From Allobosea sp. OK403 (GTDB taxonomy: Bacteria; Pseudomonadota; Alphaproteobacteria; Rhizobiales; Beijerinckiaceae): 64,000 nucleotides of DNA. The notes under the pieces are model-generated. The model was not told where the DNA came from. It made no database searches and worked only from the letters and a program-made list of their open reading frames with translations. This document shows, piece by piece, positions 44,268 to 63,251 of this stretch; position 1 is the stretch's first letter, and each line of letters begins with the position of its first letter. The stretch is from positions 1 to 64,000 of the forward strand of contig NZ_FOQV01000003.1 in NCBI RefSeq assembly GCF_900113835.1. Direction: 5' to 3'. Made by a program: the position numbers and the translations under genes.

Positions 44268-44408
44268 CGCGGCTTCCCGATTAACGATGGTTTACCTGTA
44301 AACATTTGCACATATGTGACCAGATCCCGCTTGGCTACACCATCGACATCGGCTCATGCTGCGAGCCGACAGGATGCTTGCGCATTCGCGGGCGCTCGGC
44401 CCGCCCCT

Positions 44409-44539
44409 AGAGCAGGATCAATTGCGAAAAAGTGGGAACCGGTTTTTCGCAATTGATCCTGCTCTAACTCTTGGATGAGAGACGGATTCAGATGTCAGAT
44501 GGGATCACTCAATGATCTCATCTGAAATCATCCGGCTCT
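44409..44539. repeat. Dispersed palindromic element, family R2
   Basis: AGAGCAGGATCAATTGCGAA ... TTCGCAATTGATCCTGCTCT around AAAGTGGGAACCGGTT, then GATGAGAGACGGATTCAGAT and the hairpin CAGATGGGATCA / TGATCTCATCTG, ending CATCCGGCTCT. It ends 22 bases before the start of the phosphatase-like gene. Confidence 0.9.
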
Positions 44540-44561
44540 TGCGACCGACAGGACCTTCGGC

Positions 44562-45074: not shown

Positions 45075-45098
45075 AAGGCGGGTGGAATCCGGCCCTCG

Positions 45099-45226
45099 AG
45101 AGCAGGATGCGAAAAAGTGGGCACCGGTTTTTCGCAATCGATCCTGCTCTCACTTTTAGATGAGAGACGGATTCAGATTTCAGATGAGATCACTCTGTGA
45201 TCCCATCTGAAATCATCCGGCTCTAG
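45099..45226. repeat. Dispersed palindromic element, family R2
   Basis: AGAGCAGGATGCGAAAAAGT ... TTCGCAATCGATCCTGCTCT, then GATGAGAGACGGATTCAGAT and hairpin CAGATGAGATCA / TGATCCCATCTG, ending CCGGCTCTAG. Second R2 copy within 700 bases; together they bracket the phosphatase-like gene in direct orientation. Confidence 0.9.
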
Positions 45227-45360
45227 CCCGGCAGCATCGTGCGGGCATGGGCGCAGCTCGCGTCGAAGACGGCGCGATTTTTCCGTTCCGACGCAGAATA
45301 TTGCTTGCGCCCGCCGGATTTTGCGACAATGCATCCGGCAAGAGGGATTTTGCCAGCGCC

Positions 45361-60452: not shown

Positions 60453-60755
60453 ATGGCCATCAAGCTTCACCCGAGCTTTGCCGTCCATCCCGGCGAATGG
60501 CTCAGGACCGAGATCGTCGAGCCGCATGGCCTCAGCGTCACTGTCGCGGCCGAGAAGCTGGGCGTGACCCGTCAGGCCATGAGCAATCTGCTGAACGGCC
60601 ATGCCGGCCTGTCGGCCGAAATGGCGATCCGCTTCGAGAAGGCTTTCGGCCTGCACGCCGACACGATGCTGCGGATGCAGGCCGCGCACGACCTCGCAAA
60701 GGCGCGGGCGCTTGAGAAGGACATCAAGGTGGAGCGGGTCGCAGCGGCGGCTTGA
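60453..60755 (+). CDS. higA: HigA-type antitoxin, XRE family (orphan)
   Basis: 100 residues. PSFAVHPGEWLRTEIVEPHG is the HigA/VapI N-terminus and LSVTVAAEKLGVTRQAMSNL followed by LNGHAGLSAEMAIRFEKAFG the helix-turn-helix. It normally follows a HigB toxin gene, but only 32 bases separate it from the gamma-glutamyltransferase gene and no toxin is visible on either side. It is therefore an orphan regulator. It directly precedes the reverse-transcriptase island. Confidence 0.9.
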   Translation: MAIKLHPSFAVHPGEWLRTEIVEPHGLSVTVAAEKLGVTRQAMSNLLNGHAGLSAEMAIRFEKAFGLHADTMLRMQAAHDLAKARALEKDIKVERVAAAA

Positions 60756-60914
60756 GGTGGTCGACATGCAGGCGTGGAGCCGATGACGAGAGTTGAGCGC
60801 CACTGCGCGACCGGTCCGGATGGCGGCCGAAGGTGTTCACCGGACGGCCATGCCCCAAGAAAGTACCCACATCATCTTGAACCAAGAATGCACCGTACAT
60901 ACTATACCTCGCGT

Positions 60915-61044
60915 GTCCATGGTTGCCATGGCGTCTGACGTGAAGCTGGACATGTCCATGCGGATCGCGCGCCAAGGTGCCATCGCCAAGGTGGCAGTTT
61001 CTGCCGAGGTGTCTGTTGTCGCGGCCCTGCCGTGCGAAGAGGAT
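60915..61044 (+). repeat. 130-base direct repeat, copy A
   Basis: Begins GTCCATGGTTGCCATGGCGT and ends CGTGCGAAGAGGAT. Contains the palindromes CCATGG-TTG-CCATGG and GGACATGTCC and the hairpin GGCAG-TTT-CTGCC (60993-61005). Identical base for base to copy B. Confidence 0.97.
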
Positions 61045-61269
61045 ATGCCGAACCTGACCGTTGACCAGGAAGCTGTGAATGCACCGTCAAATGACGGCCC
61101 CCAAGCAGCAGATTGGCATTTCAAGCGGCGGGCGAGGCCGGGGCGGAAAGCGCTTGACGTCGCCAAAAACCTGTTAGGGTGAAAGGTGGAGGAATGTGTG
61201 AAGTCGCCCCGAAAAACCAGCTCGCCTGAGCTGGCCTTCCGGCATGTGCGCTTGCGTACTCGCCGTAGC

Positions 61270-61399
61270 GTCCATGGTTGCCATGGCGTCTGACGTGAAG
61301 CTGGACATGTCCATGCGGATCGCGCGCCAAGGTGCCATCGCCAAGGTGGCAGTTTCTGCCGAGGTGTCTGTTGTCGCGGCCCTGCCGTGCGAAGAGGAT
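61270..61399 (+). repeat. 130-base direct repeat, copy B
   Basis: Identical to copy A and in the same orientation, 355 bases further on, ending 55 bases before the reverse transcriptase start. Flanking bases diverge at once on both sides (T versus C before, A versus G after), so the duplicated unit is exactly delimited. Confidence 0.97.
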
Positions 61400-61454
61400 G
61401 GGTGCCTGTCAACGGTCGGGACCAGTATGCGCGGGGGGCCCGAGCGGAGAATTG

Positions 61455-62807
61455 ATGGCTGAGCTGTTTCAAGAGGTCAGAAGTGAACGGAATATCTTTT
61501 CCGCTTGGCGGCATGTGAAGCGCAGCGCGCTTACTTCCGGCAACCAAGATATCCGGGGCATGGCTTCTGAATTCGAGCACGCCCATCAAAAACATCTTCG
61601 TAGAATAATCACACAGCTTCGCGAAAATCGATTTATATTCGATCCCGTTGACGGCGTTCTTAAGGATAAACGGAAGAGGGAAGCGCAGGGTAAAGACCCC
61701 CGCCCCATTGCGATTGCAACCCTAAAAAACCGCGTCGTGCAACGCGCTATACTTCAGATTCTTCAGCCGAGAGAAGCACGCGACTTGCGAGATGTCGACT
61801 CTCGATTCGAAACAAAACGAGACGACCGTCTTGGCAAGATCAATAATGTGAATAGGTCTGAATTCGGCGTCGGCGGCTTGATCTACCCTTACGGTGGAGT
61901 ACGTCCTGCCATTGAGAAAATCATGGGCGCGATCGACACGGGAGCAAAATACTTTTACCAATCTGATATAAAAGCATTTTTTACTAAAATTCCCACGCGG
62001 AACGTCGTTGACTTCGTTCGTAGAGAGACGCGCGACGATGCCCTGGCAGACCTCTTTGAACAAGCTCTTGCAGTCCACCTCGCGAACGCGGACGAACTAA
62101 AAGGCTACGCGGATCTGTTTCCCAAGGGCGGCATTGGCGTAGCGCAAGGTTCATCCTTATCAGCATTCGCAGGAAATGTATTACTTTACGAAATGGACCA
62201 CGAACTCAACAACACCGGCGTCACCGCCGTTCGATATATTGACGATATCCTAATAGTCTCCGAAAATGAAACCGACTTAGAGTCCGCTATTACGCTCGCA
62301 AAATCGAGACTTGAGGGCTTTGGTTTTGGACTATATTCACCCGCTAACGGATCTGATAAAGCGGCAAGGGGAGAATGCGACAAAGCGATCAATTTCCTTG
62401 GGTGCACAATTCAGCCAAGGCGGTGCGTGCCGAGCAAGGCGTCAATCGACAAACTCATAAGTGGCGTTGCTTCATCTCTCTCCGCTTCCAAGTCCGCAAT
62501 CAATGATGCACTCAAGACTGGAAAGCGGCTCGATTCAAGAATGTCACAGAGTGCAGTCCTGCACCAACTTGGAGACAAGATATACGGGTGGCAAAAATCA
62601 TTCGCGTTCTGCAATGAAGATCAGCCGTTCCGTCATGTTGATGATCAAATCACCAACCACGTCTCCGGCTATCAAGGTTTTATATCTCGAAAACTAGCCG
62701 ACATTGACACCCCAAGACAAATGATGATCCTTGGAATACCAGCAACATCCACCCTATTTCTTACAGATAAGGCAAGAAACAGATCTAAATCTGCGACAGC
62801 CAAATAA
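61455..62807 (+). CDS. Stand-alone reverse transcriptase, class not assigned
   Basis: 450 residues. Fingers motif KDPRPIAIATLKNRVVQRAI at 80-99, first catalytic Asp171 in YQSDIKAFFTKIP, turn motif GVAQGSSLSAFAGNVLLYEM at 228-247 and the catalytic YIDD at 261-264 (AVRYIDDILIVSE). A helical C-terminus follows (GDKIYGWQKSFAFCNEDQPF). No maturase X, endonuclease or integrase domain is visible, so it is not a typical group II intron enzyme. The turn motif lacks the SQ of diversity-generating enzymes. It looks like one of the stand-alone, often defence-related groups. ATG 61455 is preceded by GGAGA. The base composition is much AT-richer than its neighbours, a sign of transfer. Confidence 0.88.
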   Translation: MAELFQEVRSERNIFSAWRHVKRSALTSGNQDIRGMASEFEHAHQKHLRRIITQLRENRFIFDPVDGVLKDKRKREAQGKDPRPIAIATLKNRVVQRAILQILQPREARDLRDVDSRFETKRDDRLGKINNVNRSEFGVGGLIYPYGGVRPAIEKIMGAIDTGAKYFYQSDIKAFFTKIPTRNVVDFVRRETRDDALADLFEQALAVHLANADELKGYADLFPKGGIGVAQGSSLSAFAGNVLLYEMDHELNNTGVTAVRYIDDILIVSENETDLESAITLAKSRLEGFGFGLYSPANGSDKAARGECDKAINFLGCTIQPRRCVPSKASIDKLISGVASSLSASKSAINDALKTGKRLDSRMSQSAVLHQLGDKIYGWQKSFAFCNEDQPFRHVDDQITNHVSGYQGFISRKLADIDTPRQMMILGIPATSTLFLTDKARNRSKSATAK

Positions 62808-63251
62808 ATATTGACATCATCATCGAACAAAAAAGCCGCCGCCAATCATCTATTCAAGTACCATTTCCTCTTGGGCCCGGCGCGCACTTCGGCACAATGT
62901 CGACTGTAGCTGGCTCCAGAGCGAGCGTAGGCTAGCGCAAGAGTGAGGGCCTGCCGCTGGTTTTGGACGCGCGACCATGCCGCAGCGCCTTCTACTGAAA
63001 GGGCACACCCTCATCCGGCGCTCCGCGCCACCTTCTCCCGTCCGGGAGAAGGGAAGAAGGCGTCGCGGTTCCCGTCAAAACTGCCGCTCGAAGCCCTGCG
63101 TCGCCGACATGCCCCCGCCCCGCTCATTTCAGCCAGGAGGCAGTGACACCGCACGCGGCATCTAGATAAACTGCCTACACATCATCGCCTGCGTAGAATT
63201 TTATAATCGTCAACACAGCCAATCCGAACAAATTCTTCTCCGGGATCCATC
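62808..63251. other. Intergenic region after the reverse transcriptase
   Basis: No credible gene and no third copy of the 130-base repeat. Composition shifts back from AT-rich to the GC-rich background near 62870, which marks the probable right edge of the acquired segment. 63001-63053 is a palindromic repeat. The last 60 bases are again AT-richer and should hold the promoter of the aminotransferase gene. Confidence 0.5.
63001..63053. repeat. Palindromic fragment of the CTTCTCCC family
   Basis: GGGCACACCCTCATCCGGCG followed by CTTCTCCCGTCCGGGAGAAG. Matches the left part of the 28330-28480 element. Confidence 0.75.

Follow-up and report, generated by a model that had tools for sequence, protein, structure and literature searches.

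The original account of the group II intron-like 4 (G2L4) reverse transcriptase (RT) as a break-repair enzyme was reportedly a paper in Cell in 2022. According to the available passages of PMC4244168, the motif YIDD is found in this group only. Passages from two further papers treat G2L4 as a double-strand-break-repair enzyme, one of them with strand annealing and microhomology-mediated end joining (MMEJ) activity (PMC12337344, PMC13015716), and the crystallized enzyme has a 9-amino-acid RT3a insertion, with an Arg190/Arg191 pair locking the RT3a plug (PMC12337344). DRT2, a defense-associated RT system, offers an earlier example of gene assembly by an RT; in the passages at hand, it jumps on 3-nucleotide (nt) ACA repeats, and its promoter arises at the junction (PMC11100668). 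The corresponding passages on DRT10 mention a 9-nt motif in repeated form alongside a SLATT gene (PMC12632851). Here, we analyzed a G2L4 locus in a 64,000-nt stretch of Allobosea sp. OK403 (GCF_900113835.1, contig NZ_FOQV01000003.1, positions 1 to 64,000 of the forward strand; “the window”). A leader of 699 bases separates the end of a HigA-like gene, at position 60755, from the RT start and carries two 130-bp direct repeats, R1 and R2, that are exact copies of each other. Of the 20 G2L4 loci that could be assessed, 18 have paired direct repeats ahead of the RT. From these sequences, we consider it possible, if somewhat short of probable, that the RT uses R1 and R2 as a retrovirus-like strand-transfer repeat, restoring a permuted gene in circular or tandem DNA.

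A G2L4 reverse transcriptase and its paired repeats

The window RT contains Asp171, QGSSLS (Q231 to S236), and YIDD (residues 261 to 264), and RVT_1 was the only Pfam domain matched at an E value of ≤1. The initial annotation of this DNA had described a complete RT with these residues, which we confirmed, and had assigned it to no known group, which did not hold. The best solved-structure matches are the G2L4 entries 9d5x and 9d4s (E values of 4e-58 and 1e-57), with the alignment covering residues 1 to 107 and 147 to 428. In a maximum likelihood tree of 45 RTs (one tree search; no RT of a diversity-generating retroelement [DGR] knowingly among them), a clade supported at 100/100 comprised 25 rows, namely, the window RT, 23 other proteins, and the crystallized G2L4 (9d5x). 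The RT5 motif is YIDD in 22 of these 23 companions and FIDD in L030. By structure matches and phylogeny, the window RT is a member of G2L4, a group already named in the literature.

The RT3a insertion is largely present in the window RT by alignment, with a 2-residue gap at the Arg190/Arg191 positions. The Arg-Arg pair (the residues before AQG) is kept in L042, from Pseudomonas aeruginosa, and is missing in the window, L005, L028, L029, and L030. Thus, the RT3a salt bridge does not appear to be general in the G2L4 clade.

Several other identities were rejected. The group II intron RT/maturase model TIGR04416 gave 123.8 bits against a cutoff of 300, and the NCBIfam model Drt2 gave 35.6 bits against 390. 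For retron RTs, a St85-family model alone was listed (37.6 bits against 235), and the best structures were those of G2L4. No group II intron RNA or known RNA family matched the window at the Rfam gathering score; the four matches at an E value of ≤10 in positions 60700 to 63250 were all to unrelated families, at chance level. In PADLOC, run on RTs and the HigA-like protein, RT_UG17 was the second-best model for the window RT, at 120 bits. Phage cargo was rejected with best RT matches of ~22 to 25% identity in a phage collection, and a plasmid origin was rejected with a best plasmid RT match of 31%. A scan of IMG/VR with the window RT alone gave no matches. A DNA-pattern search of IMG/VR recovered two contigs carrying the unit; nine loci came from an alignment scan, among them these two contigs and two loci outside G2L4.

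The 130-base repeats reported in the initial annotation were found as two exact copies within a leader of the length given there, and the next best match to the repeat in the 6.6-Mb genome had an E value of 0.1. That annotation had also joined leader and repeats to the RT as one unit, and aligning homologous loci bore this out. Six close relatives were first examined, with RTs 59 to 68% identical to the window RT in amino acid sequence. Four of them (L005, L019, L020, and L021) share the leader at 80 to 84% nucleotide identity over 340 to 356 bp together with a second R; the L006 contig begins 58 bases before R2, and L028 has a single R, 76% like that of the window. By eye, conservation was absent from the DNA before R1 and from the DNA beyond the RT stop. 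R1 and R2 are 98 to 100% identical in each of five loci.

Distant G2L4 loci (28 to 37% amino acid identity) have repeat pairs too, with sequences unrelated to the window R. These pairs measure 103 bp in L022, 128 bp in L029, and 137 bp in both L030 and L042, and more pairs were found in L050, L051, L052, L055, L056, L084, and L085. Side-by-side reading of the repeats led us to reject the reuse of one R sequence across deep lineages. Across G2L4, the pairs are 103 to 138 bp long and 95.6 to 100% identical, with start-to-start distances of 328 to 384 bp. This identity within a locus compares with 86 to 90% between the window R2 and the R2 of five close relatives. R2 ends ~47 to 69 bp before the RT start, distances that are approximate since the RT starts of several loci (e.g., L022, L084, and L088) were extrapolated from the alignment. 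We counted 24 G2L4 loci, of which the 20 with about 1 kb or more upstream were taken as assessable; L006, L023, L048, and L049, with <250 bp upstream, fell outside. Loci from the same contigs (L034/L046 and L033/L047) or the same places (L080/L084 and L081/L085) were counted once, and L079 and L083 (G1158), whose leader is the same as that of the Labrenzia locus L005, were left out.

The two exceptions, L028 and L024, look like single-repeat products of deletion between R1 and R2. By eye, the single R of L028 immediately follows a P1-like promoter site and is itself followed by a2 and the RT (Table 1); L024 has kept one R remnant. Lone R copies or fragments of the window family were also seen in two Rhizobium plasmids and one genome (L031:5001-5124 of CP140805.1, L032:5001-5076 of NZ_CP071682.1, and L038:1501-1585 of G400); no RT was found next to any of them. 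At L038, a P1-like site together with the first (5') 85 bases of R leads into a different open frame. The P. aeruginosa unit (L042:5001-11209) adjoins a recombinase, a TIR-domain protein, an inovirus-type Gp2, and an integrase and resembles a mobile element.

We looked for a repeat of at least 80 bp, at 85% identity or more, in up to 1.3 kb upstream of 15 RTs from other groups (14 plus L091) and found none. Left out of these controls were L058, L061, L062, L064, L066, L067, and L069 (no open reading frame [ORF] past the motif filter) and L068 (205 bp upstream); L063, among the RVT_1 loci, is the window's own RT. The same scan over 337 other ORFs in the same DNA flagged 12, of which 8 view the RT leader itself and 4 lie at two other places. 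The control scan also turned up a second direct repeat in the window, at ~44401 to 44553 and 45089 to 45241 (153 bp, 85.6% identity, spacing of 688).

That the repeats are assembly errors or unrelated duplications is hardly conceivable. The contigs of L048 and L049 begin 82 and 152 bases upstream of the RT; judged from the spacing in related loci, both starts probably fall inside R2, as collapsed repeats or tandem or circular DNA would cause; repeats of this kind thus do seem to disturb assembly. However, the same layout stands in many independent assemblies and in plasmid records labeled complete (NZ_CP131792.1, NZ_CP027659.1, NZ_CP077849.1, and CP119252.1), and the RTs of other groups lack the pair. 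In three relatives of the genus (G001, G019, and G032), the left flank matches up to 60749-60757 and the right flank matches from 62937-63094, with 513, 667, and 1,438 bp of other DNA, respectively, in between; therefore, leader and RT share one variable place. Taken together, we are all but certain that leader and RT form one conserved unit.

Of 27 differences listed between R1 and R2, none is in the window; 19 fall in the 5' half, whereas the 3' half has 5 and the last twentieth 3. A 5' bias of this kind would follow from copying that begins at the 3' end. A DGR was rejected because these differences are, by eye, without adenine bias and absent from the window; in the above tree, the RT also falls in the G2L4 clade.

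A second RT group, in Acinetobacter plasmid records, has the motif YADD and was placed away from G2L4, together with L087 at 99/96. Repeat pairs were found in four of the six relatives examined, at 126 bp (96% alike) in L072 and L086, 135 bp in L088, and 129 bp in L089, where the RT match starts at residue 77 of L072; H55, H58, and H61, further Acinetobacter/Acetobacter RT relatives, are outside this count. The repeat-less Acetobacter sister RT (L087:1998-4780) is followed by an opposite-strand gene annotated as a DNA damage-inducible protein.

Predicted transcription start, RNA fold, and permuted reading frame

Using a simple sigma-70 score, we found that the mean over 13 lineages aligned on R1 peaks where the start site would lie at −5 to 0, reaching 9.99 at −4 against a median of 7.82 across scored intervals. 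(The near-duplicates L051, L085, and L086 were left out of the 13-lineage tests.) Individually, the window, L022, L030, and L055 score strongly at R1. Thus, the left edge of R1 tends to coincide with a predicted transcription start. No terminator was found in positions 60700 to 61500. The second promoter-like site, P2, has the pattern CTTGACxTxGxCAAAAACCTGxTAGG, which is kept in the spacer as far out as L022. A possible counterpart of the conserved AAAAAC element, GCAAAAACGTGCCA, was seen in L029, L030, L042, and L084 when the spacers of these loci, L051, and L085 were compared. It stands before R2, is letter-for-letter identical in four lineages with an unrelated-looking R, and reads QKRA in the leader-peptide frame, although its counterpart in the W clade is without a start codon.

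The hairpin-rich character that the initial annotation gave the leader was upheld in part. The fold of the 540-nt leader has z = −2.3, single repeats range from z = −0.5 to −2.3, and Rfam gave no match at the gathering score. In the covariance check which that annotation had suggested, the consensus fold of R2 plus tail had 97.5% of cells paired, with two-sided changes in 4 of 59 pairs (matched by 3 of 500 shuffles), modest support for an RNA structure. Just 3' of R1 and R2 lie the complementary stretches a1 and a2. In the window, the strength of a1:a2 was equaled by 0 of 500 shuffles, but 4 of 19 a2 stretches from other loci pair with a1 just as strongly; in 7 of 13 lineages, <5% of shuffles pair as strongly as a1:a2.

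Both repeats lie within reading frames. The frame of R entered from R1 is open through R and for 42 to 79 codons beyond it in 16 loci, 14 of them directly and L042 and L051 with the letters of R1. In the same frame, an ORF with a hydrophobic N terminus, a “leader peptide” called by eye from hydrophobicity, runs through R2; in L042, its N terminus reads MQKRANAARQAVKAIATAVILACLL..., and the record annotates a hypothetical protein. Leader, R, and tail are continuous only if R2 is joined to the DNA downstream of R1, which would make them a circularly permuted small gene. Other frames cross R in 5 of 32 cases, and none of these extends >36 codons past R. With dinucleotide shuffles, the chance of such a frame was 0.015 to 0.415 across ten G2L4 lineages and 0.013 for L072; for L088 and L089, it arose in 0 of 400 shuffles. 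The Acinetobacter loci have one frame open from R1 through R2 for 171 to 175 codons, and their repeat periods of 399, 378, and 387 are all multiples of 3.

Within R, we compared the proportions of nonsynonymous and synonymous differences (pN and pS). In the window's clade, pN is 0.18 and pS is 0.35, with constraint in 43 of 45 non-independent pairs against 12 and 11 of 45 in the shifted frames. The peptides gave no Pfam match at an E value of ≤1 and matched only one PHROGs family, of unknown function (E value of 0.48).

These frames bear on two other accounts of the leader. It could be a structured noncoding RNA (ncRNA) that serves as template or cofactor, as in retrons, DRT2, DRT9, and DRT10, with the frames incidental and the repeats for folding or template jumping only. 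The shared predicted fold of R2 plus tail with its four two-sided pair changes, the nucleotide conservation of the leader in four relatives, and a negative codon test of the spacer agree with this account. Yet R is under codon constraint in one frame, the frame is open across the joint in 16 loci (two of these with R1's letters), and the AT-rich Acinetobacter units stay open for 171 to 175 codons, and we regard an ncRNA with incidental frames as rather unlikely. Alternatively, R1-tail and leader-R2 could be two ordinary small genes with a common domain, kept alike by gene conversion, and the RT an unrelated repair enzyme on the same module. Both halves are indeed open frames on the chromosome as it stands, and the module sits at a variable place. 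However, R1-tail has, by eye, neither a consistent start codon nor a leader peptide, and the fact that unrelated lineages and a second RT group keep a similar distance to the RT suggests a functional link. We consider two such genes very improbable.

Proposed copying across the repeats and its alternatives

In retroviruses and long terminal repeat (LTR) elements, the R region is a direct repeat that begins at the 5' end of the RNA, which suits it to strand transfer. We propose that the present unit, with the order P1-R1-a1-tail-P2-leader peptide-R2-a2-RT, may work in a similar way. RNA from P1 would begin at R1, pass R2, and enter the RT gene. The RT would start near a2, possibly aided by a1:a2 pairing, and copy R2, the spacer, and R1 to the RNA 5' end. 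The nascent cDNA end, the complement of R1, would then re-anneal to R2 and be extended again, like the retroviral R-to-R jump, and the product would be tandem or circular (R-tail-P2-leader)n DNA. P2-leader-R-tail would form one continuous gene of ~90 to 120 codons with a hydrophobic N terminus in this product DNA only; the chromosomal form would be the same gene circularly permuted and interrupted by the duplication of its own middle part. An endless frame would result from this joining in the Acinetobacter group. As the product would be made only with an active RT, the gene would be gated, and, speculatively, it may be a growth-arrest or defense effector. A retrovirus-like jump would account for four observations, i.e., repeats that are kept alike at nearly every assessable G2L4 locus, an R1 edge that tends to fall at a predicted start site, a rotated frame, and an RT. 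The wider claim, that G2L4 and the Acinetobacter YADD RTs are both gene-assembly machines whose secreted or membrane peptide comes from RT-made DNA only, by R-to-R strand transfer, we put forward as a possibility with slightly more reserve.

A number of observations weigh against this proposal. The sigma-70 score is unremarkable at L042, L052, L056, and three Acinetobacter rows, and a stricter promoter scan of the window gave no plus-strand promoter, flagging neither P1 nor P2. In 6 of 13 lineages, the a1:a2 pairing does not exceed 95% of shuffles, and cross-locus pairing is often as strong; because cross-locus pairs average −20.0 kcal/mol versus −25.3 kcal/mol for own pairs (standard deviation of 7.0), the pairing is suggestive only. 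No repeats were found at L087 (36% RT identity) and the partial L090, relatives of the Acinetobacter RT. On the coding side, the frame and thresholds were set after the data were seen, and open frames are common at 60% GC. The tail after R1 has a pN of 0.22 and a pS of 0.29, as does shift 2, so that no coding constraint was found in the tail beyond that of a shifted frame. Between L088 and L089, pN is 0.43 and pS is 0.61, near saturation. The leader spacer was rejected as an ordinary coding gene, its codon positions changing evenly. Start codons vary in the window's clade, and none common to the leader peptides of the W clade was seen by eye. In L030 and L085, small indels near the R1 5' end break the frame with R1's letters, and R2's letters are needed. 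Moreover, RecA gene conversion could suffice without an RT to keep R1 and R2 alike, and the passages of PMC12337344 portray G2L4 as a DNA-repair enzyme without an RNA partner.

A switch at the DNA level would also join the gene. Here, R1/R2 recombination or annealing repair would excise a ~355-bp circle with the joined gene, or delete it, with the RT acting on DNA and no RNA template. Such a switch would restore the joined frame equally well, L028 and L024 are single-repeat forms, and the activity published for G2L4 in the passages of PMC12337344 is strand annealing and MMEJ. It leaves unexplained, however, why R1 tends to start at the promoter start site and why the R1/R2 differences are biased to the 5' side; unless renewed or selected for, long direct repeats should also disappear over time, and still both persist in 18 of 20 loci. 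We judge the DNA switch unlikely.

If the RT does copy across the repeats, a well-characterized RT family would gain an RNA and DNA substrate that the available passages on G2L4 leave unmentioned; we found no mention there of a leader RNA, repeats, or a split gene. The family would be linked to RT systems such as DRT2, whose genes are written by the RT and are missing from the linear genome. A search rule for more such genes, which gene callers can miss, would also follow: an RT directly preceded by long direct repeats that are 330 to 400 bp apart and enclose a permuted frame. Whatever the mechanism, the conserved repeat-bearing leader at 18 of 20 G2L4 loci opens the natural role of the enzyme to direct testing.

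The positions of the features are collected in Table 1. The right edge of the module is uncertain because a dispersed repeat begins at 62937. This family (window positions 62937 to 63075, just downstream of the module) has many same-genus copies, at 77 to 91% identity among the matches listed. A HigA-like gene also precedes the variable place in G001, G019, and G032. No HigB-like ORF was noticed beside the HigA-like gene, with no search aimed at it.

Table 1. Features of the Allobosea locus, in window positions
Feature	Position	Strand	Basis or remark
HigA-like antitoxin gene (HigA family, TIGR02607)	60453-60755		Upstream neighbor of leader
Whole module (leader + RT)	60758..62936	+	Not at this place in three relatives
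P1 promoter-like site, TTGAAC-N17-TACTAT	60877..60905	+	Read from sequence, 9 nt before R1
R1, first direct repeat, 130 bp	60915..61044	+	Repeat comparison
R1-plus-tail open frame, 88 codons + stop	60916..61182	+	Supposed C-terminal part of split gene; no Pfam or PHROG match at an E value of ≤1
a1, 11 nt complementary to a2	61053..61063	+	Just 3' of R1
P2 promoter-like site, TTGACG ... TAGGGT	61154..61180	+	In spacer; putative; conserved in L022 (RT 35% identical)
Conserved AAAAAC element with CCAGCTC/GAGCTGG hairpin	61211..61235	+	Alignment
Small ORF, hydrophobic N terminus + R2 + short tail	61244..61462	+	Overlaps RT start
R2, second direct repeat, 130 bp	61270..61399	+	Repeat comparison
a2, complementary to a1	61410..61420	+	Just 3' of R2
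RT gene	61455..62807	+	G2L4 RT, 450 amino acids; ATG at 61455, stop ends at 62807

Comparison with known systems

The window RT shares with the crystallized G2L4 (9d5x/9d4s) its RT clade, the YIDD motif, and a free-standing form without a recognizable intron RNA. It differs in that Arg190/Arg191 are missing and in having a leader, repeats, and a putative split gene, all absent from the published G2L4 passages available. As in DGRs, two near-identical repeats, one of them in a small frame, lie beside an RT. The a1/a2 inverted repeats of retrons may have a counterpart in the 11-bp a1:a2 of the window.

Like the R regions of retroviruses and LTR elements, the window R1 is a direct repeat with its left edge at a putative RNA 5' end; unlike in those elements, Pfam gave no integrase domain in the window RT protein. 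DRT10 (UG17) pairs an RT with an ncRNA and yields a repeated DNA product, as the window unit may, and RT_UG17 ranked second for the window RT. A SLATT partner, in contrast, was not noticed at the window locus, where no SLATT model was run.

A parallel in outcome may be DRT2 (UG2, neo gene). There, too, an RT adjoins a leader RNA, and tandem copying here would, by analogy, assemble a gene absent from the linear genome; an endless joined frame would arise in the Acinetobacter group only. In contrast to DRT2, the window unit belongs to another RT group, has long repeats (103 to 138 bp across loci), carries a promoter-like site inside, and would have its gene on the strand of the leader.

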